A stretch of DNA of 64,000 bases from Mesonia aestuariivivens. GTDB taxonomy: Bacteria; Bacteroidota; Bacteroidia; Flavobacteriales; Flavobacteriaceae. The position numbers were made by a program, and so were the translations under genes. Location of the stretch: contig NZ_JAHWDF010000006.1 of NCBI RefSeq assembly GCF_019311235.1, forward strand, positions 62,001 to 126,000, in the 5' to 3' direction. This document shows, piece after piece, positions 22,339-30,742 of the stretch. Position 1 is the first letter of the stretch; the number at the start of each line of letters is the position of its first letter. The notes under the pieces are model-generated. The model searched no databases and was not told the origin of the DNA. It saw only the letters and a program-made list of their open reading frames with translations.

Positions 22339-22349
22339 TAATTAATAAG

Positions 22350-22519
22350 TCAAAATCAATGAAGCATATTTTTATTAGGCTAAACCGTTTTTTTTTTACT
22401 TTCGGAGAAACAACTTTTATGCCGAAGAAACGATGTTTATAGGCTGCACAACCTAAACTTATAAATGTGCATATATTTTGTACAAATGACCTTATAACGA
22501 TAAGGTCATAAATTTTAAA
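22350..22519 (+). repeat. Peptide-cassette leader repeat, copy 1 (short form)
   Basis: This leader shares with 23835-24122 and 26555-26855 the blocks TATTTTTATTAGGCTAAACC, a T-run (T10 here), ACTTTCGGA, TGCCGAAGAAACG, GGCTGCACAACCTA and the terminal hairpin. A segment of about 114 bp found in the other copies is missing. It is bounded there by the 10-bp direct repeat ACAACTTTTA, of which this copy retains only one (22410-22419). A TATATTTTG stretch at 22472-22480 may be a promoter with altered spacing. Confidence 0.85.
22488..22507 (+). promoter_or_regulatory. Leader hairpin 12 nt before peptide gene 1
   Basis: GACCTTAT-AACG-ATAAGGTC is a perfect 8-bp stem. The same stem, with different loop bases, lies at the same distance from the ATG in leaders 2 and 3. 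It could be an RNA hairpin shielding the ribosome site or a dimeric DNA-binding protein site. Confidence 0.7.
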
Positions 22520-22762
22520 ATGATGAAAAAATTATTATTATTAACCTTTTTGTTTTCCGGGTTTTCTTTTAGCAGTTTAAATGCGAATACGTATAGATTA
22601 CAAATCCAAAATAACAATTGTGCAAACTATGCTTGGAATGCTGCTTCGGATTTTTGTGCTAAAAGAGATCAAGGTTGTACTGATTATGAATATTGGGCTA
22701 TGACTGATACTGCTTATAGAATATGTTCAAGTTTAAAGTTAAATCCATCTTTAACGCCATAA
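22520..22762 (+). CDS. Small exported Cys-containing peptide 1 (80 aa)
   Basis: The product has a signal peptide MMKKLLLLTFLFSGFSFSSL shared almost exactly with the peptides at 25204 and 26856. The mature part of about 57 residues has four Cys (NNCAN, DFCAK, QGCTD, RICSS), and ends SLTP. It belongs to a four-member local family defined by the signal peptide, an early Cys, a later Cys preceded by AY-x-x, and a [LV]-x-P or S-L-x-P C-terminus; the middle is hypervariable. No known family is recognised. A GLPGLI gene starts 15 bp downstream. Predicted to be exported across the inner membrane and perhaps disulfide-bonded. Confidence 0.75.
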   Translation: MMKKLLLLTFLFSGFSFSSLNANTYRLQIQNNNCANYAWNAASDFCAKRDQGCTDYEYWAMTDTAYRICSSLKLNPSLTP

Positions 22763-22777
22763 CAAAGCATTTTAAAA

Positions 22778-23533
22778 ATGAGATATTTAATTTTAATCTT
22801 TTTCAGTTTTGTAATAAGCCATTCTTTTGCACAAACTAATTTTGAGGCTACTTATCAAATTAAATTTGATAATGAAAAGTTGAAGAATTTATACAAAGAA
22901 GAAAGTAGTAGAGATGCTATGCAATATAATATGCTCTTTAAAACTATGATAAAAAGTGCTGAAAGTTTGGATTACAAAATTTTATTCAATTCATCTAATG
23001 CTGTTTTTGAACCTACCGAGACTCTAACAGTCAAAAAAAATAAAGGATTAAATTTTGGATCGGGTATTTTGACAACAATTGATGCGGAAGCTAAAATTTT
23101 CACTTCAACTGAATGCAATGAATACTACAAAAAAATTGATGCAGGAGGTGTCAAAGCTTTGGTTCTATACCCATTTAAAAATTTTAATTGGAAGTTGACA
23201 AACCAAAATAAAGTTTTAAATGGTTTAAAGATTTTCAAAGCTAATACCGAATTAAATAGAAATAATAGAGTAATCTTAATTGAAGCTTGGTATTGTAAAG
23301 ATTTACCATACAGTTATGGCCCTGTTATGTTTAATGGTTTACCTGGGTTGATAGTGCAGGTTACTATTGAGGAGAAATCCAAGAATAGTTTAAAATATAC
23401 CTTTTCAATGGAATCTATCAAAAAAACTAGTAAAGCTGTTGAAAAAGCTCCAAAGGAAACCTATAAAATTATTTCTGAAAGAGAATTAAATGAAATTTTT
23501 GCTAAAATGAATTCGAATTTTAATCCACATTAA
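22778..23533 (+). CDS. GLPGLI-family protein 1 (TIGR01200)
   Basis: This 251-aa exported protein has a signal peptide ending near residue 18 (...ISHSFAQ), and the family hallmark SYGPVMFNGLPGLIVQV at about 184-200. The WYCKDLPYSYGP segment before it is the usual aromatic GLPGLI context. The function of the family is not known; members often sit next to TonB-dependent receptors in Flavobacteriia. It follows peptide gene 1 by 15 bp without an intervening hairpin. Sequence differs strongly from the three neighbouring paralogues outside the GLPG core. Confidence 0.88.
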   Translation: MRYLILIFFSFVISHSFAQTNFEATYQIKFDNEKLKNLYKEESSRDAMQYNMLFKTMIKSAESLDYKILFNSSNAVFEPTETLTVKKNKGLNFGSGILTTIDAEAKIFTSTECNEYYKKIDAGGVKALVLYPFKNFNWKLTNQNKVLNGLKIFKANTELNRNNRVILIEAWYCKDLPYSYGPVMFNGLPGLIVQVTIEEKSKNSLKYTFSMESIKKTSKAVEKAPKETYKIISERELNEIFAKMNSNFNPH

Positions 23534-23560
23534 TTATAGAATATTTTAAATAGAAAGTTA

Positions 23561-23772
23561 TTGCTAATCCTGTTTTTCCTAACAGGATTTTCTTCTCTTT
23601 CAGCCCAAGAAATAAAGTTAGAAAGAAAGGTGTTAGACAGTAAGCAAAACCTAATATTAAATACCAATCTAATAGCTACACCACTAATGGAAAGCCAAGA
23701 TATCACTTTTGCCATTATCGACATTAAAGGGCGATACAAGTTAAATTTTAAGACCAAAACTTATTCGATTTA
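23561..23772 (+). pseudogene. Remnant of a TonB-receptor gene (5' end only), copy 1
   Basis: About 70 codons match the 5' end of the receptor gene at 27995: signal-peptide tail (LFFLTGFSSLSAQ), the carboxypeptidase-like start EIKLERKVLDSKQNLI, TNLIATPLMESQDITFAI and IKGRYKL. Similarity then stops abruptly and a stop follows. The rest of the receptor (about 800 codons) is absent. The sequence after the break (LIVNTKVYI in one frame) is shared with the remnant at 26263. The short frame lacks an ATG. Confidence 0.8.
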
Positions 23773-23931
23773 ATAGTTAATACAAAGGTTTATATATCAA
23801 TAGTTTAAATAAATATCGCTAAAATAATAAATAGACCAAACCCGATAAAATCTATTTTTATTAGGCTAAACCGTTTTTTTTTTTTTTACTTTCGGAGAAA
23901 CAACTTTTAAATATATGATGTTCTAGCTACT

Positions 23932-23962
23932 AAAAAAGAGAAGCTCCAAAAAACTTGGAGCC
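23932..23962 (-). terminator. Minus-strand intrinsic terminator inside leader copy 2
   Basis: Read on the minus strand, the stem GCTCCAA / TTGGAGC with loop GTTTT is followed by TTCTCTTTTTT. Copy 3 keeps it at 26664-26693 with one mismatch. It may end a short antisense transcript, or be a relic of an ancestral gene end. Confidence 0.5.
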
Positions 23963-24090
23963 CTCTATAACCAAATGGTATAAAACCGTATGATTAGTTT
24001 GCACTACAAACGTACAACTTTTATGCCGAAAAAACGACACGAATAGGCTGCACAACCTAGATTTATAAGTGTGCATAATTTTATACAACC

Positions 24091-24110
24091 GACCTTATTA
24101 AAATAAGGTC
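24091..24110 (+). promoter_or_regulatory. Leader hairpin 12 nt before peptide gene 2
   Basis: GACCTTAT-TAAA-ATAAGGTC: same 8-bp stem, same distance to the ATG as in the other two leaders, with a different loop. Confidence 0.7.
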
Positions 24111-24122
24111 ATAAATTTTAAA

Positions 24123-24368
24123 ATGATGAAAAAATTATTCATGTCATTTGCTTTTATAGCAGTGTTTTTTTCTAGTCAAGCTACTAATATAATTACTCAA
24201 AGAAATTGCTCAAATGAAGCAATTGTAGCTTATGATGTTATATTTGCTTTGACTGGCAACATGGCAGTAGCATTTCAGGCTGCAGATAATACTTATAATT
24301 CTTGTATTGATGATGGCGGTTCAGAAGGTGGTGTAGTACGAGAGTTAGATAATAGTTTGCAACCATAA
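24123..24368 (+). CDS. Small exported Cys-containing peptide 2 (81 aa)
   Basis: The signal peptide (MMKKLFMSFAFIAVFFSSQA) is the most divergent of the four. The mature part has two Cys 34 residues apart (QRNCSNEA and TYNSCIDDGG), an Ala-rich middle, and ends NSLQP. The shared family features are the leader hairpin, the early Cys, the NTYNSC motif before the second Cys, and the final L-x-P. A terminator-like hairpin separates it from the GLPGLI gene 55 bp downstream. Predicted to be secreted to the periplasm or beyond; role unknown. Confidence 0.75.
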   Translation: MMKKLFMSFAFIAVFFSSQATNIITQRNCSNEAIVAYDVIFALTGNMAVAFQAADNTYNSCIDDGGSEGGVVRELDNSLQP

Positions 24369-24383
24369 TAATTTGTAGAATTT

Positions 24384-24408
24384 TTAAGCTGGAAAAATTT
24401 TCCAGCTT
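24384..24408 (+). terminator. Intercistronic hairpin, cassette 2
   Basis: Stem AAGCTGGAAAA / TTTTCCAGCTT followed by TT lies between peptide gene 2 and GLPGLI gene 2. It probably acts as a partial terminator that lets the peptide be made in excess. Confidence 0.65.
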
Positions 24409-24422
24409 TTATCTATTTTTCG

Positions 24423-25148
24423 ATGAAAAAAATTTTCACTTTAATTACTATCATTTCTGTAACGTTAATGAATACCTATTCTCAATCAGGGACTATTACG
24501 TACAAAGCGGAGATAGATAATAATATAGAAAAATTTGTAAATGATATTACAGACCCAATACGCAAAAGCTATAGTCAAAAATTTATAAGCAATCTAAAAA
24601 AAAGCGCACCTTATCTAAATTTTACATTAAATTTTAATGAGCAAGAATCACTTTTTACCGGTAAGCAAGTCATGTTAAATGATAATGGTGTCGATTTAAA
24701 TATGGCATATGGTGCCTTTAGTGCAGATGGCACATTTTATAGCAACAAGTATGATGAAATGATTTTTTGGCAGCGACAGCTTTCAGGAAAAGAATATAGG
24801 GTGCAAATGAATGCTTGCAGAGATTGGAAGATCACCAATGAAAGTAAAATAATAAAAGGGTATAAATGTTTAAAAGCAACTACGAGTACCATAATTAATA
24901 ATGAAAATTTGATAACGACTGCTTGGTTCTGTCCAACTCTAGGTTACCAGTTTGGTCCGAAAGGTTTTGAAGGTCTACCTGGGTTAATTTTGGAATTAAA
25001 TTATCTTAATCGATTTAGATTTTATGCAAATAAAATTATTATTAAAAGTAAATATCAGAAAATAGTAAAACCTCAAGAGGGAAAGTTAATTACAGCAAAA
25101 AAGTTTGAAGAAATTATTAAAAAACAAATGGGGTTTTTTCAAGACTGA
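24423..25148 (+). CDS. GLPGLI-family protein 2
   Basis: This 241-aa exported protein has a signal peptide ending near residue 20 (...NTYSQ). The hallmark FGPKGFEGLPGLILEL lies at about 178-193, after AWFCPTLGYQFGP. RDWKITNESK and the ending IIKKQMGFFQD match the GLPGLI layout. It follows peptide gene 2 and precedes peptide gene 3 by 55 bp with no new leader repeat, so cassettes 2 and 3 may share one transcript. No receptor remnant follows it. Confidence 0.88.
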   Translation: MKKIFTLITIISVTLMNTYSQSGTITYKAEIDNNIEKFVNDITDPIRKSYSQKFISNLKKSAPYLNFTLNFNEQESLFTGKQVMLNDNGVDLNMAYGAFSADGTFYSNKYDEMIFWQRQLSGKEYRVQMNACRDWKITNESKIIKGYKCLKATTSTIINNENLITTAWFCPTLGYQFGPKGFEGLPGLILELNYLNRFRFYANKIIIKSKYQKIVKPQEGKLITAKKFEEIIKKQMGFFQD

Positions 25149-25203
25149 ATTTATTCAATATCATCTTCGCTTAAAATTATAGTTGCTCATAATTTTTAAA
25201 ATA

Positions 25204-25443
25204 ATGAAAAAATTATTAATCTTAACCGTTTTTTTTGCTGGATTTTCTTTTAGCAGTTTAGATGCTAAGACCTTACAAACTGATTGTCATTCGTATGCCC
25301 AAAATGCATGTGTTGAAGAATCCCAAGCTTTGGGATATCAAATGTCTTTTAGCGAATATCAACAAGCATATGCTTTTTATTATAATGGCTGTGTTGATTC
25401 TGGTGGTAGTATTAATGATCCAATATTTGTACTTACCCCTTAA
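25204..25443 (+). CDS. Small exported Cys-containing peptide 3 (79 aa)
   Basis: The start is taken at ATG 25204 because MKKLLILTVFFAGFSFSSL aligns with the other signal peptides; an upstream ATG-like start at 25183 adds seven unaligned residues. The mature part has Cys in TDCHS, NACVE and NGCVDSGGS and ends FVLTP. The AYAFYYNGC block matches the AY-x-x-C region of its paralogues. Unlike peptides 1, 2 and 4 it has no leader repeat or GACCTTAT hairpin upstream. A very strong hairpin follows the stop. Confidence 0.75.
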   Translation: MKKLLILTVFFAGFSFSSLDAKTLQTDCHSYAQNACVEESQALGYQMSFSEYQQAYAFYYNGCVDSGGSINDPIFVLTP

Positions 25444-25463
25444 GCATATTATAATATTAAATT

Positions 25464-25516
25464 AAAAAAGATCTTCATTTACTAATAAAGACTTTTAGTA
25501 AATGAAGATCTTTTTT
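25464..25516 (+). terminator. Strong intercistronic hairpin, cassette 3
   Basis: A perfect 22-bp stem (25464-25485 with 25495-25516) and 9-nt loop ends in T6. It is the strongest hairpin of the island, sitting between peptide gene 3 and the broken GLPGLI gene 3. Confidence 0.85.
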
Positions 25517-25543
25517 AATATTTAAGAACTTTAAAGTTTATAA

Positions 25544-26270
25544 ATGAGGATAATTTTAAGCATATTATTTTTTGCGATTTTTACTGTCTGTTCTTCCCAA
25601 GAAAAACCTATTCATAAAAATATTTTGATAGTTTATGGAAAGAAGATAGTAACTAATAATAAAAAAAATATAAAAGATCAGCGTGTTAGATATTCTATAA
25701 ATTCAATCAAAAAATCCTTTGAATATCTAGAATACGAATTAATTATTAAAGATGATATATCTCAATTTTCTTTAATTCCATTTATGGATAATGAAGGTAT
25801 AAACATCAATAAGCGTGCTATAAGCGCAGGTGGAGGTGAGAGTATATATTTTACTGAAAAAAATAAAGATTCTTTATATCATCAAATGAATGAATTATTT
25901 GGTGAAATCTACACAGTTAGATATCCAAAAAAGGTATGAATGGAAAATTATTGATGAGAAAAAAATTATCAATGGATATAATTGCATTAAAGCGGAAGCT
26001 ATTGAGGTAACTAATGATTTTAGAGGAAAATTTGAAAATAAGATTACCTGTTGGTTTACAACAGAATTACCAAGTGGATTTGGACCAGCAGATTTTGTAG
26101 GGTTACCAGGATTGGTAATACGAGCACAAAAGGGAAATATAATATTTTATGTTAAAAATATATATGATAAGAGTTTAAGTTTCAAATATAAAAGAATGCA
26201 AAACTCTATTACAAAAAAGCAAATAACAGAAATATTTAATAATGGAATGAATAATTATTTTAATGATTAA
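25544..26270 (+). pseudogene. GLPGLI-family gene 3, frameshifted
   Basis: The first frame (25544-25939) encodes a signal peptide (MRIILSILFFAIFTVCSSQ) and the N-terminal half; the second (from about 25932 to 26270) continues with YEWKIIDEKKIINGYN and the hallmark FGPADFVGLPGLVIRA. The switch occurs at an A6 run (25927-25932): one A fewer would join the two frames into a normal GLPGLI protein of about 241 aa. The stop at 26268-26270 overlaps the ATG of the receptor remnant at 26263, showing an ancestral GLPGLI-receptor overlap. A sequencing error is possible. Confidence 0.8.
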
Positions 26271-26532
26271 AAAAATAAAAGTTTTTATTCTATTTATATT
26301 TTTAACAGGATTTTCTTCTCTTTCTGCCCAAGAAATAAAGTTAGAAGGTAAGGTGTTAGACAGTAAGCAAAACCTAATATTAAATACCAATCTAATAGCT
26401 ACACCACTAACAGAATGCAAAACATCGCTTTTGCGATTATCGACATTCAGGGGGCGGTACAAGTTAACTATTAAATCGAAAACCATATTGGATTTAATAG
26501 TTAATACAAAAGTCTATATACTTATAGTTTAA
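26263..26532 (+). pseudogene. Remnant of a TonB-receptor gene (5' end only), copy 2
   Basis: The frame starts with ATG overlapping the end of the broken GLPGLI gene and encodes a complete signal peptide (KVFILFIFLTGFSSLSAQ), EIKLEGKVLDSKQNLI and TNLIATPLTE. It then departs from the 27995 receptor, with a further local frame change near 26420 (TECKTSLLRLSTFRG in place of the expected ERQDITFAI...). The tail LIVNTKVYI is shared with remnant 1, so both descend from one deletion event followed by duplication. Confidence 0.8.
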
Positions 26533-26554
26533 ATAAATATCGTTAAAACAACAA

Positions 26555-26855
26555 ACCGACCAAAATCAATAATAACCGATAAAATATATTTTTATTAGGC
26601 TAAACCGTTTTTTTTTTTTTACTTTCGGAAAACAACTTTTAAATAAATGATGTTCTAGCTACTAAAAAAAGAGAAGCTCCAAAAAATTTGAAGCCCTCTA
26701 TAACCACATGGCATAACACCGTAGGTTTAACTTGCATAACAAATGTACAACTTTTATGCCGAAGAAACGATGTTTATAGGCTGCACAACCTAAACTTATA
26801 AGTGTGCATAATTTTGTACAACCGACCTTATTAAGATAAGGTCATAACTTTTAAA
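26555..26855 (+). repeat. Peptide-cassette leader repeat, copy 3 (long form)
   Basis: This copy has a T13 tract, the ACAACTTTTA pair at 26632-26641 and 26747-26756, GGCTGCACAACCTA, a consensus -7 box TAATTTTG at 26809-26816, and the hairpin GACCTTAT-TAAG-ATAAGGTC at 26824-26843, 12 nt before peptide gene 4. It is the only leader with a perfect TAnnTTTG. Confidence 0.85.
26809..26843 (+). promoter_or_regulatory. Promoter -7 box and leader hairpin before peptide gene 4
   Basis: TAATTTTG (26809-26816) predicts a transcript start close to the first arm of the hairpin GACCTTAT / ATAAGGTC. The hairpin would then be near the very 5' end of the mRNA, a position that fits mRNA protection or control of initiation, or an operator overlapping the start site. 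Confidence 0.6.
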
Positions 26856-27101
26856 ATGATGAAAAAATTATTAATCTTAACCGTGTTATTTACTGGGTTT
26901 TCGTTTACAAATAGTATTGCAAATAATTCCAAAGAAGAATTATCAACAGATTGCGTTCGATTAGCAATGGATGTTCATGATTCTTGGACATCACAGGGAT
27001 TTAGTGATCGTTATGCAAGCGGAAAGGCTGATGATGCTTACAATGATTGTGTAAATCACGCAACTACACCTCAGACACCAGAACTTGTATTACAACCATA
27101 A
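26856..27101 (+). CDS. Small exported Cys-containing peptide 4 (81 aa)
   Basis: The signal peptide MMKKLLILTVLFTGFSF matches peptides 1 and 3. The mature part has two Cys 32 residues apart (STDCVRLA and YNDCVNHA), the DDAYNDC block shared by the family, and the end LVLQP. It is the peptide paired with the last GLPGLI gene and with the only long receptor gene, so this cassette is probably the complete ancestral arrangement. A hairpin separates it from the GLPGLI gene. Confidence 0.75.
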   Translation: MMKKLLILTVLFTGFSFTNSIANNSKEELSTDCVRLAMDVHDSWTSQGFSDRYASGKADDAYNDCVNHATTPQTPELVLQP

Positions 27102-27120
27102 ATTTTTAAATATGTAATTT

Positions 27121-27150
27121 ATAGCCTGGTTTAGATCTAAATCAGGCTAT
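27121..27150 (+). terminator. Intercistronic hairpin, cassette 4
   Basis: ATAGCCTGGTTTAGA pairs along its length with TCTAAATCAGGCTAT (one G-U). No T-run follows, so it may be a processing or stability hairpin rather than a full terminator. Confidence 0.55.
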
Positions 27151-27170
27151 ATTATATAAATGAGATAATA

Positions 27171-27881
27171 ATGAAGAAAATTAAAATTTTTGTTTGCTTG
27201 TTTCTATTAATAAGCTCTTTTATTAATGCCCAAAACATATCTGTTACTTATAAAGAAACGATGGTAAAAAATCCAATTGATACTTCTAATATAGATCCAG
27301 GGGATTATAAAATGGTCATGTTTAAAGAAATGGAAAAAGTTAAGAATGCAGTAAAAAATGTATCTTATTCATTAAAGGCCAATCAGACCGAATGTTTGTT
27401 TGAAGTATTTAATTTTATGGAAAACGACGGCAATAAAAGTTTAGAAAATGCCATTTTAGCTTCTTCAGCAGATGGTAAGTTTTACAGTAATAAACTAGAC
27501 CAACTTTATTTTTGGCAGGTGAACAATGGTAGTAAATACTATAGAATATTAAATACTGATAAAATAGAAGGATGGAAAATTACTAAGCAGTCAAAAAAAA
27601 TAGGAAAGTACATTTGTTATAAAGCTACAAATAAAATTTTATTAAATAACAAATTACCTATAGAGGTAATTGCTTGGTTTACTCCAGAAGTTCCTTATTC
27701 ATTTGGTCCGAAAGGCTACGGAGGCTTACCCGGATTAATTATAGCTCTAAATGAAAGAGGTTTTTACTTTTACGCTGAAAAAATAAAATTTCACGATTCC
27801 AAATTAAATATTGATAAACCTCAAAAGGGCAAGCTGGTAACTCCAGATGAATATGATGATCAGACTCAAATAGGTTTTTAA
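27171..27881 (+). CDS. GLPGLI-family protein 4
   Basis: This 236-aa exported protein has a signal peptide ending at about residue 20 (...SSFINAQ). It carries EGWKITKQSKK, AWFTPEVPYSFGPKGYGGLPGLI (given in two parts: AWFTPEVPYSFGP, then KGYGGLPGLI) and ends abruptly at DDQTQIGF. Paralogues continue for about 10 residues with a helical KxMN-like end, so the C-terminus may have been shortened, perhaps in the same event that altered the start of the receptor downstream. It is followed after about 110 bp by the long receptor gene. Confidence 0.87.
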   Translation: MKKIKIFVCLFLLISSFINAQNISVTYKETMVKNPIDTSNIDPGDYKMVMFKEMEKVKNAVKNVSYSLKANQTECLFEVFNFMENDGNKSLENAILASSADGKFYSNKLDQLYFWQVNNGSKYYRILNTDKIEGWKITKQSKKIGKYICYKATNKILLNNKLPIEVIAWFTPEVPYSFGPKGYGGLPGLIIALNERGFYFYAEKIKFHDSKLNIDKPQKGKLVTPDEYDDQTQIGF

Positions 27882-27994
27882 ATAAAATTTCTAATATCAC
27901 AATAACTCAACACCATAAAACATTTCTCCTAATCCTGTTCTTCCTAACAGGATTTTCTTCTCTATCTGCCCAAGAAATAAAGTTAGAAGGCAAG

Positions 27995-30592
27995 GTGCTC
28001 GATAGTACGCAAAACCCAATCCCGTACACCAATCTTATCGCAACGCCATTAACTGAGAGACAAGATATCACTTTTGCCATTACCGATGTTCAAGGACGAT
28101 ACAAACTAAAGTTGGTAGAAGCCGTAAGTTACCAATTAGAAATTACCCATATGGGCTTTTCTAAAGTAACCGATACGGTAAAATTCACTGCAAACAGTCA
28201 AAAAGATTATTTCTTACAAAAAAGCACCGAGAGTTTAGAAGAGGTGATTATTAAACAAGAAATGGCGGTCATTGTAAAAGAAGATACCATTACCTACCGT
28301 ACAGATCAGTTTAAAACGGGTGAAGAGCGTAAGTTGCGAGAAGTCTTAAAAAAACTGCCCGGCGTAGAAGTAGACCGGGAAGGTAATGTTACCGTAAACG
28401 GTAAAAAAGTGACTAAACTCATGGTCGAAGGTAAAACCTTTTTTACCGGCGATACCAAATTGGGTGTCAATAATATTCCGGCAGATGCGGTCGATGAGGT
28501 CGAAGCGCTCGATAATTATAACGAAGTCGGTTTTTTAAAAGGCCTAAGCGATAGCGACCAAATGGCACTCAACATTAAATTAAAAGAAGGCAAAAAGAAA
28601 TTTTTATTTGGCGATCTCGAAGCCGGTGGCGGTATCGAAGATCGTTACCTCATTCATCCTACCTTATTTTATTATAGTCCCAAAACGGCAGTTAATGTAA
28701 TTGCAGATTTTAATAACATTGGTAAAAAGAGTTTTACCATGCAAGATTACATTAATTTTGAAGGTGGTTATGCCGCTATGCTAGATGGTTCTACCAGTTT
28801 TGGCGATGTTTATAGTAGCGATTTCGCTCAGTTTTTAAATCAGCAAGATTTTGTATATCAAAAAAACGATTTTGGAGCCGGGAGTGTTTCACAACAAATT
28901 AACCCTAAACTTCGCTTAGAAGCATTTTCTATTGTTAATAAAGGGAAAACCCAAACCAGAACCACCAACAGCCTTACGTATGTAGCAGAAGATAATCTCG
29001 ATGAGTTTAGAGAAACCACCCAAGAAAACACAATGTTGTTCAGTTTAAATAAACTCAAGTTGCGCTACCAACCCGACGATGAAAACGATTTGGCGTACGA
29101 GGCCTTTATAAAAACCTCTAATGGAGATGCTTACCAAAACCTAAATTCATTGACGACGATCGATACCACGCTTACGCAAATAAATCAGCAACCAAAAAAT
29201 GTTTCAGTAAATCAAGAAGTACGCTATAACAAACAGTTTTCTTACGAGCATACCTCTACCTTAATTGCCAATTATAAGTACAGCGATCAAGAAACCGATA
29301 ACGATTGGTTATTTAACCAACCAATTTTTACTAATTTAATCCCCTTTCAGCAAGACGGTAATTTTTTTAATTTATTACAACAAACCGCTACGCAAAAGCA
29401 CCAAGCTACGTTAGACTTAAAACATTATTGGGTGCTTAATAACTTCAATCATATTTATCCGCGAGTGGGTTTCACATTTTTAGACGAATCGTTTTCTACC
29501 TTAGACCAACAAATCTTACCAAACGGAAACTTCAATAGCTTTCAGCAAAATGGTTTTAATAACGATTTAAATTTTCGCTTGGTCGATAATTACATTGGGT
29601 TTCAATACAAAGCCAAAGCCGGCGATTTTATTTTTAAACCGGGAGTGATGTACCATTCTTATTTCTGGAAAGTGAATCAATTTTCAGAAGAAATCGCCAA
29701 TCAGCAAAAAAGTGTCTGGTTACCGGAGTTAAATATTGAATACGAAATTTCTTCCGCAGAAAAACTAGAACTCGATTACCAATTAAAAACCAGTTTCGCC
29801 AATGCCTCGCAATATGCTAATCGATTGCGATTGGTAAGTTTTAATCAATTATATCGCGGTAACGAAAATTTAGAAAATCAGCTTTTTCATTCGGCATCTT
29901 TGCGTTACCGACAATTTAATATGTATAAAGGCATTTTTTTAAACGCCAATCTAAATTATACTAAAAGAGAACAATCGATTAGAAACACGACGCAAATCGA
30001 AGGGATCGATCAAGTAAGTACTTCAATTTATACAAGCTTACCAGAAAACACTTATGCGTTAACCGGTTCTTTAACCAAAAAAATATCCAAATACAGTTTT
30101 ACTCTTCGCGGAAATATCAACTTATCCGACTATTCTAGAATTATTAACGACAATGTAAACGATTACCAATCACAAAATTACCGCTACACGCTCAAAGCTC
30201 AAACACGTTTTAAAGAATGGCCAAATTTAACTTTAGGTTGGGAGCAACGCTTTAGCAATTTTGAATCTGAAACTTTTAAAAATAACTTCACTCAAATTAA
30301 TCCGTATGCCTATTTAGAGTGGGATTTTCTAAACGATTTTATTTTTAAAGCCGATTACACCTATAACTATTACGAAAACAAAAATACCAGCCAAATCAAC
30401 CGATTTGATGTAGGGAATTTATCATTATATTATAACAAAGAAGATAGCCCCTGGGGTTTCGAGATCGATGTAGATAATGTGTTCGATATTCAGTATAAAA
30501 ACGAATACTCATTTAATCAATTTATAGTCACCGATAGAAATATTTATTTGCAACCTAGAACTATTTTGTTCAAGCTTTCCTATAAATTGTAA
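27995..30592 (+). CDS. TonB-dependent-receptor-like protein; signal peptide lies upstream of any normal start
   Basis: From GTG 27995 the frame gives 865 aa: a carboxypeptidase-like regulatory domain (about 1-75), a plug-like region (LPGVEVDREGNVTVNGKKV, ADAVDEVEALDNYNEVGF) and a long beta-barrel ending LFKLSYKL. The same frame is open upstream and encodes a signal peptide (KTFLLILFFLTGFSSLSAQ) from 27917, identical in type to the remnants, but the expected ATG reads CAT-AAA-ACA; a lost G after 27916 would restore ATG-AAA-ACA. A rare ATA at 27902 is the only near-start. GTG 27995 would give an unexported protein. Likely partner of GLPGLI protein 4; ligand unknown. Confidence 0.75.
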   Translation: MLDSTQNPIPYTNLIATPLTERQDITFAITDVQGRYKLKLVEAVSYQLEITHMGFSKVTDTVKFTANSQKDYFLQKSTESLEEVIIKQEMAVIVKEDTITYRTDQFKTGEERKLREVLKKLPGVEVDREGNVTVNGKKVTKLMVEGKTFFTGDTKLGVNNIPADAVDEVEALDNYNEVGFLKGLSDSDQMALNIKLKEGKKKFLFGDLEAGGGIEDRYLIHPTLFYYSPKTAVNVIADFNNIGKKSFTMQDYINFEGGYAAMLDGSTSFGDVYSSDFAQFLNQQDFVYQKNDFGAGSVSQQINPKLRLEAFSIVNKGKTQTRTTNSLTYVAEDNLDEFRETTQENTMLFSLNKLKLRYQPDDENDLAYEAFIKTSNGDAYQNLNSLTTIDTTLTQINQQPKNVSVNQEVRYNKQFSYEHTSTLIANYKYSDQETDNDWLFNQPIFTNLIPFQQDGNFFNLLQQTATQKHQATLDLKHYWVLNNFNHIYPRVGFTFLDESFSTLDQQILPNGNFNSFQQNGFNNDLNFRLVDNYIGFQYKAKAGDFIFKPGVMYHSYFWKVNQFSEEIANQQKSVWLPELNIEYEISSAEKLELDYQLKTSFANASQYANRLRLVSFNQLYRGNENLENQLFHSASLRYRQFNMYKGIFLNANLNYTKREQSIRNTTQIEGIDQVSTSIYTSLPENTYALTGSLTKKISKYSFTLRGNINLSDYSRIINDNVNDYQSQNYRYTLKAQTRFKEWPNLTLGWEQRFSNFESETFKNNFTQINPYAYLEWDFLNDFIFKADYTYNYYENKNTSQINRFDVGNLSLYYNKEDSPWGFEIDVDNVFDIQYKNEYSFNQFIVTDRNIYLQPRTILFKLSYKL

Positions 30593-30598
30593 AGATCA

Positions 30599-30690
30599 GG
30601 GCAAAGCCTGCGGCCCAGGCTATCCATTACCATCTTTTTTTGCCACTTATCAAAGCAAAAAAAGGATTTTCATTACTATCCCTTTTGCGA
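30599..30690. repeat. Dispersed repeat type A, copy 2
   Basis: The copy begins with GGGCAAAGCCTGCGGCCCAG and GGCTATCC, contains an internal inverted repeat around TTTTTTTGC...GCAAAAAAA, and ends GGATTTTCATTACTATCCC with TTTGCG. It follows the receptor stop. Confidence 0.65.
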
Positions 30691-30742
30691 AAATTTTAAT
30701 TCAATCTTCAGATTAAAAAAACAGCAGTTCATACTTATTTCT

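Follow-up and report, generated by a model that had tools for sequence, protein, structure and literature searches.

The element described here is a gene array in a 64,000-nt stretch of DNA (hereafter, the window) from Mesonia aestuariivivens (assembly GCF_019311235.1, contig NZ_JAHWDF010000006.1, positions 62,001 to 126,000), and all coordinates are positions of this window. Four genes for secreted peptides with a pair of cysteines (Cys) each lie 5' of a gene for a GLPGLI protein, and a single Oar-like receptor gene closes the array. An earlier note made from the sequence had placed four peptide and four GLPGLI genes here, with a full receptor gene after the last cassette only; the open reading frames (ORFs) confirm all of this, the receptor ORF being at 27995-30592. 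The same note spoke of four tandem cassettes; the pairs hold, but the units are not identical: the third GLPGLI gene is frameshifted (two overlapping frames, 25544-25939 and 25890-26270), receptor stubs follow cassettes 1 and 3 only, and the leaders are unequal, with repeat leaders only at peptides 1, 2 and 4. The features, all on the plus strand, are as follows.

22343-22519, plus strand: leader of cassette 1, a repeat common to leaders 2 and 4
22520-22762, plus strand: peptide 1 (type A); the same type adjoins the receptor in Mesonia algae and Haloflavibacter putidus
22778-23533, plus strand: GLPGLI 1 (profile match)
23550-23748, plus strand: receptor 5' stub after cassette 1 (repeat search)
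23829-24122, plus strand: leader of cassette 2 (repeat search)
24123-24368, plus strand: peptide 2 (ORF)
24386-24408, plus strand: hairpin between peptide 2 and GLPGLI 2 (sequence and hairpin survey)
24423-25148, plus strand: GLPGLI 2 (profile match)
25204-25443, plus strand: peptide 3, directly after GLPGLI 2, without stub or full leader (ORF, repeat search)
25470-25510, plus strand: hairpin between peptide 3 and GLPGLI 3 (read from the sequence; not among the rows of the hairpin survey)
25544-26270, plus strand: GLPGLI 3, broken, in two overlapping frames (ORFs, profile match)
26273-26471, plus strand: receptor 5' stub after cassette 3 (repeat search)
26563-26855, plus strand: leader of cassette 4 (repeat search; match to Mesonia mobilis)
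26856-27101, plus strand: peptide 4 (ORF; structure model)
27120-27151, plus strand: hairpin between peptide 4 and GLPGLI 4 (sequence and hairpin survey)
27171-27881, plus strand: GLPGLI 4 (profile match; predicted structure)
27884-30592, plus strand: Oar-like receptor, with a CarboxypepD_reg-like domain, a weak Plug match and a long C-terminal part

Leaders 2 and 4 are 90% identical over 302 nt, almost entirely non-coding. Peptide 3 lies immediately 3' of GLPGLI 2, and in the repeat search of the array a short shared stretch alone precedes its start; in the same search, a 51-nt stretch is the sole similarity between GLPGLI genes. Directly 5' of peptides 1, 2 and 4 stands a perfect palindrome, GACCTTATNNNNATAAGGTC (22488-22507, 24091-24110 and 26824-26843), which has no other copy in the genome and is a candidate operator or hairpin of the 5' untranslated region. 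Leaders 1, 2 and 4 also carry a run of at least 10 T after GGCTAAACCG, different in length in each leader, where slippage could occur close to the promoter. The 3 intact GLPGLI proteins score 109-129 bits against TIGR01200 (cut-off 50) and, together with the second piece of the broken one, 36-53 bits against PF09697 (cut-off 25); a PF09697 search of the whole genome gave 5 matches, every one within the array. The N-terminal domain of the receptor is recognized by PF13715 (35.7 bits against a cut-off of 32.2), PF13620 reaches 27.7 bits, under its cut-off of 32.3, and the Plug match is weak (PF07715, 14.1 bits against a cut-off of 23.9). PADLOC, run on 4 proteins, gave no match.

The same genomic site was read in 16 genomes of Mesonia, in the GTDB definition of the genus, all of which carry dusB, so that the interval ahead of this gene could be followed in each. 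GLPGLI genes with an orthologous receptor occupy the interval in 6 genomes (G000, G001, G003, G004, G008 and G014), 5 of which have a peptide; none was seen in G014, where the receptor and one GLPGLI gene are broken. The window receptor is 96% identical to that of Mesonia mobilis (G004), and further orthologues are found in M. algae, M. hippocampi and Haloflavibacter putidus. In 5 genomes (G002, G005, G010, G012 and G013) a gene for an outer-membrane protein is followed directly by dusB, G006 has a single GLPGLI gene at the site, and in G007 the site is cut by a contig end. In G009, G011 and G015, both peptide and receptor are different ones and are accompanied by a GLPGLI relative with ALPGLI (full sequence read in G009); behind these lies a C-terminal remnant of the first receptor (78-79% over about 203 amino acids; loci L072, L052 and L073), as though the whole unit had been replaced. 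Between the window receptor and dusB, a Flavo-1 RNA (RF01705, 49.2 bits against 42) is present on the minus strand at 30609-30693.

The comparison with M. mobilis delimits what has changed. The two loci match over the leader and the start of the peptide gene (91.8% over 316 nt, reaching into the signal peptide) and again over the receptor region (91.5% over 883 nt, and 90.9% over 3,852 nt with dusB), with no match across the ~1.0 kb of mature peptide and GLPGLI; one break lies inside the signal peptide, close to where it ends, and the other 36 nt past the GLPGLI stop. Wider comparisons used the best 80 of 147 receptor-profile relatives, one genome per species, with genera including Psychroflexus, Leeuwenhoekiella, Winogradskyella, Zunongwangia, Lacinutrix and Muricauda. 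Among receptor-adjacent GLPGLI genes with a peptide, 25 locus pairs have a receptor identity of at least 0.80 (22 loci; the pairs are not independent), and 24 of them differ in peptide type while 1 is alike, with a median mature identity of 0.23. Comparison of the loci shows leader DNA, signal peptide and receptor start to be the constant parts, with the mature peptide and GLPGLI changing jointly, and the constant parts look like recombination arms of exchangeable cassettes. One could imagine that peptide and GLPGLI protein coat or plug the receptor and diversify to evade phages, grazers or hosts that use it, as the receptor is common to the loci and changes far more slowly than the cassettes. 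However, when a small secreted partner is swapped, the receptor itself stays conserved, as between the window and M. mobilis, and we consider such surface variation improbable.

Probable traces of past exchange are present on the receptor side as well. A search with nearly the whole receptor as query covered 77 loci (3 of the 80 gave no receptor frame). In 17 of them a receptor fragment lies ahead of the receptor; it is N-terminal in 16 and C-terminal in one (L205). The N-terminal stubs comprise 22 matches, all inside query residues 1-115, and 21 of these begin at most 140 nt from the end of a preceding GLPGLI gene. C-terminal receptor pieces lie downstream in two more loci (L147 and L203), and, together with L205 and the three Mesonia genomes with a receptor remnant, they show that the whole receptor is replaceable too. 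As for the beginnings of the receptor genes, the window frame opens 5' of 27995 without ATG, GTG or TTG in that part, and 34 of 76 receptors have only GTG or TTG starts and 6 have none, 3 of these 6 (L161, L189 and L218) being unreliable. The receptor frames of the window, M. mobilis, M. algae and Haloflavibacter all lack ATG, GTG and TTG ahead of the signal peptide. Two further observations concern single loci. In Psychroflexus gondwanensis (L160, 5961-6296), an ORF looks like the beginning of a GLPGLI gene that continues as a Cys-pair peptide and probably marks a recombination junction, and Croceitalea dokdonensis (L209) and G215 (L117) have two peptide types in common whose order relative to the receptor is swapped, one being truncated in Croceitalea. 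No mobile carrier was found: viral contigs held no receptor relative, and among plasmid records only four had a distant GLPGLI.

The association of peptide, GLPGLI and receptor extends well beyond the genus, and many Flavobacteriaceae have one or more such cassettes ahead of a single Oar-like receptor gene. At least one secreted Cys-pair peptide is present in 63 of the 75 loci having an intact GLPGLI gene, with signal peptides and cysteines called by our own simple rules, not SignalP. Among genes with upstream room, a secreted Cys-pair ORF stands in front of 94 of 142 GLPGLI genes (excluding those under 150 amino acids) versus 3 of 166 other genes, and two of these 3 control genes are the receptor itself, apparently behind a real peptide. 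At E <= 0.001, a profile of the mature parts of 25 peptides gave 19 matches, distributed over 11 of 397 family genomes; every match lies within a GLPGLI locus, and three of the genomes were absent from the profile. Thus, homologues mostly without GLPGLI neighbours, which the earlier note had named as the outcome that would count against it, did not occur. When all 4,504 small ORFs of the receptor loci were searched with a profile, 107 matched at E <= 0.05, partly in a circular manner (91 are from the profile's training set and 16 are independent), with zero on the minus strand; by our own reading, 104 lie beside a GLPGLI gene (one of them broken), 2 directly before the receptor and 1 without a nearby GLPGLI gene. 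Arrays can be large, a single locus of P. halocasei having ten GLPGLI matches, two of which are pieces. Among 395 order-level genomes, a mature profile of 71 peptides matched only that of the window and that of Psychroflexus longus, and among 345 phylum-level genomes it matched the former alone; because these samples are rich in same-family genomes and the profile is insensitive, we claim no absence outside the family. A profile with signal peptides included was dropped, as it matched 182 of 397 family genomes, mostly by signal peptides alone.

Each cargo peptide has a gene of its own, about 60-100 codons long, of which the signal peptide is the constant part. We tabulated 105 cassettes from 66 loci, leaving out window cassette 3 with its broken GLPGLI gene and taking 6 cassettes from two further genomes. 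Signal identity is at least 0.7 in 27 of 65 same-locus pairs versus 56 of 4,451 distant-locus pairs, and the former 27 have a median ungapped DNA identity of 0.93 in the signal and 0.37 in the mature part, the latter being the level between unrelated loci. Homogenization of the signals is not universal, with a median identity of 0.45 across all 65 same-locus pairs. Similar mature peptides are also found after unlike signals in separate genera; window peptide 4 and a P. longus peptide share 61% identity over the Cys-to-Cys core, at a signal identity of 0.25 and a receptor identity of 0.56. The constant signal and Cys pair reported for the window peptides stand, whereas the L/V-x-P end reported with them does not generalize: the relatives examined end otherwise, and L-x-P is peculiar to the window genome.

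In 88 peptides, only the start Met and the two Cys are invariant, and single linkage at 50% mature identity divides the 105 peptides into 80 clusters. This diversity bears on the possibility that the peptide is an uptake aid, a secreted ligand-catcher that returns through the receptor to GLPGLI as periplasmic acceptor. The context of a TonB-type receptor would suit such a role, which we nevertheless regard as very doubtful, since a fixed nutrient would not require so many clusters and, the two Cys aside, no ligand residues are conserved. The ratio of non-synonymous to synonymous substitution rates (dN/dS) is 0.03-0.42 for mature parts within types (16 computable pairs of 20), which identifies them as selected coding genes. 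It is hence highly unlikely that the array is a functionless pile of broken duplicates: stubs, peptide-less GLPGLI genes and frameshifts exist, but decay is contradicted by the purifying selection between related loci within types, by the invariant Cys pair and by the recurrence of the arrangement in many genera. The recurrent duplication and diversification of the peptide postulated in the earlier note is borne out, and diversity between peptide types is very high; a middle region with little diversity under purifying selection, again an outcome named there as unfavourable, was not observed, selection of this kind being found only within a type. Diversity was compared between species, not strains. 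A diversity-generating retroelement was rejected as a candidate, the genome having no RVT_1 match where control genomes were positive.

Mature peptide and GLPGLI protein diverge together. In distant loci, 17 peptide pairs reach a mature identity of 0.45 or more; their GLPGLI proteins have a median identity of 0.41, compared with 0.275 for the remainder, and when partners were shuffled within loci, 0 of 5000 shuffles reached the observed value at each of three thresholds. The earlier suggestion of a dedicated GLPGLI partner in a receptor context is upheld. Read in the other direction, 26 of 27 cross-locus GLPGLI pairs with at least 0.5 identity have a mature identity of at least 0.43; the exception, P. 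gondwanensis and P. lacisalsi with identical GLPGLI behind different peptides, shows that the peptide alone can change too. The rank correlation between peptide and GLPGLI over all distant pairs is small (0.07), since in most pairs neither gene is related to its counterpart. Physical linkage accounts for part of the co-divergence. Yet the signal peptide, despite being physically closer to the mature part, hardly tracks it (rank correlation 0.036), and this puts the boundary of the exchange where the signal ends.

Several properties bear on what the partners might do. The AlphaFold 2 model of peptide 4 is a helical hairpin with C32 and C64 (numbering of the 80-residue form), and the mature peptides in general are predicted to be such hairpins. 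The model had no match to PDB structures at E <= 0.001, and the peptide profile searched against PDB sequences gave one match, with an E value of 0.93. The predicted structure of GLPGLI 4 (mean predicted local distance difference test score 92) resembles the bowl domain of PNGF-II and, more weakly, LolA carriers; the PNGF-II/PNGase bowl domain (4r4x, 4r4z, 7zgn) is the nearest relative of GLPGLI in both fold and sequence. A hairpin lies between the peptide and GLPGLI genes in 51 of 70 gaps versus 14.2 expected, and 5' of the peptide start in 7 of 105 (four in Mesonia; 18 of 2100 in shuffles). A Bacteroidota -7 promoter box is not enriched 5' of the peptides (11 of 105 versus 9.1 expected). We count the GLPGLI fold, the two-helix peptide, the charge of peptide and GLPGLI, the hairpins and the receptor starts in favour of the partner functions proposed below.

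The main rival, on balance unlikely, is a toxin-immunity system, in which the peptide kills close kin, GLPGLI confers periplasmic immunity and the receptor is the exporter or the entry door. Joint replacement of polymorphic pairs and retention of displaced cassettes resemble toxin-immunity cassettes and polyimmunity loci (PMC3482391, in the part available), and GLPGLI genes without a peptide are frequent: 95 of 190 intact ones lack one by strict criteria, and in Zunongwangia mangrovi 8 stand without a detected peptide. However, a search of 88 peptides against Pfam matched no toxin, bacteriocin or other peptide family (best E 0.0041, with no family having more than 2 members), and 101 of 105 peptides have a net negative charge. 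Furthermore, intact peptides adjoin broken GLPGLI genes in at least the window, Haloflavibacter and L217, the intergenic hairpin predicts less partner than peptide, and GLPGLI genes also adjoin receptors without a peptide (L044 and L045).

We tentatively favour a polymorphic peptide-export system made up of a cargo peptide, a cognate periplasmic GLPGLI carrier and an Oar-like porter, its specificity changed by cassette exchange, and rate it at slightly under an even chance. The cassette architecture, the pairing and the exchange are well supported by the genomic comparisons; the biochemical role and the carrier-porter mechanism we infer. Sec would deliver the peptide to the periplasm, where a disulfide would close the helical hairpin, and the peptide's own GLPGLI protein, with its predicted bowl or half-barrel fold, would bind it and pass it to the receptor, to be exported or displayed on the surface. 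The need for Oar in PopC secretion in Myxococcus is counted for export (PMC6434023, in the accessible part). The peptide would be produced in excess over its partners, because the hairpin follows the peptide gene and the receptor starts are often non-ATG. A new peptide-GLPGLI pair would enter by homologous recombination in the leader/signal DNA and the receptor start; given leader/signal homology upstream and receptor-start homology downstream, each cassette is framed by two blocks. Displaced pairs would remain upstream and in many cases be followed by a receptor stub, as a crossover within the receptor start would leave the older pair upstream plus a stub. In the least certain step, the exported peptide would have a role in related strains competing with or recognizing one another, and this would account for the rapid turnover; cargo turnover far faster than that of flanking genes is the usual mark of conflict or recognition between organisms.

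With slightly more reserve, the loci may be seen as a new export class in Flavobacteriaceae, in which hypervariable acidic Cys-pair hairpin peptides and cognate carrier-like GLPGLI proteins share an Oar-like porter and the pairs are recombined between species, with the constant leader/signal block and the receptor start as the recombination sites. The new elements are a peptide family without a Pfam match and a partner family without a function in the literature searched: searches of the open literature, outside which most subscription journals fall, turned up no GLPGLI function and no description of the peptide-GLPGLI pairing. To our knowledge, an Oar-like delivery gene is not of a kind that carries cassettes. 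If export is indeed what these loci accomplish, it would be the first function for the GLPGLI family. The locus provides this family with a partner and a gene order, and with a fold prediction and a specificity that can be tested; it also brings to light a family of small secreted peptides.

The genetic logic resembles that of polymorphic toxin cassettes. As in the CDI, Rhs, Maf and SitA systems, constant flanks enclose a variable cargo that is replaced with its adjoining partner, displaced cassettes stay near and partner genes occur without cargo (PMC3482391, in the part available). Unlike in those systems, the cargo here is a whole small secreted gene rather than the C-terminal tip of a large carrier, there is no recognized toxin domain, the peptides are acidic, the partner is a GLPGLI protein and a constant Oar-like receptor lies downstream. 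For export, the precedent is Myxococcus xanthus Oar, an outer-membrane receptor with a CarboxypepD_reg-like N-terminal domain that exports PopC (PMC6434023); PopC, however, is a large protease, and the accessible part of that source mentions neither peptide cassettes nor a GLPGLI partner. The closest systems also include the lipoprotein carriers LolA/LolB (PMC11885536, in the part available) and RseB/MucB. Unlike in PNGF-II, where the bowl is a domain of a glycosidase, GLPGLI stands alone here with a peptide partner, and these members of TIGR01200/PF09697 travel with a peptide.

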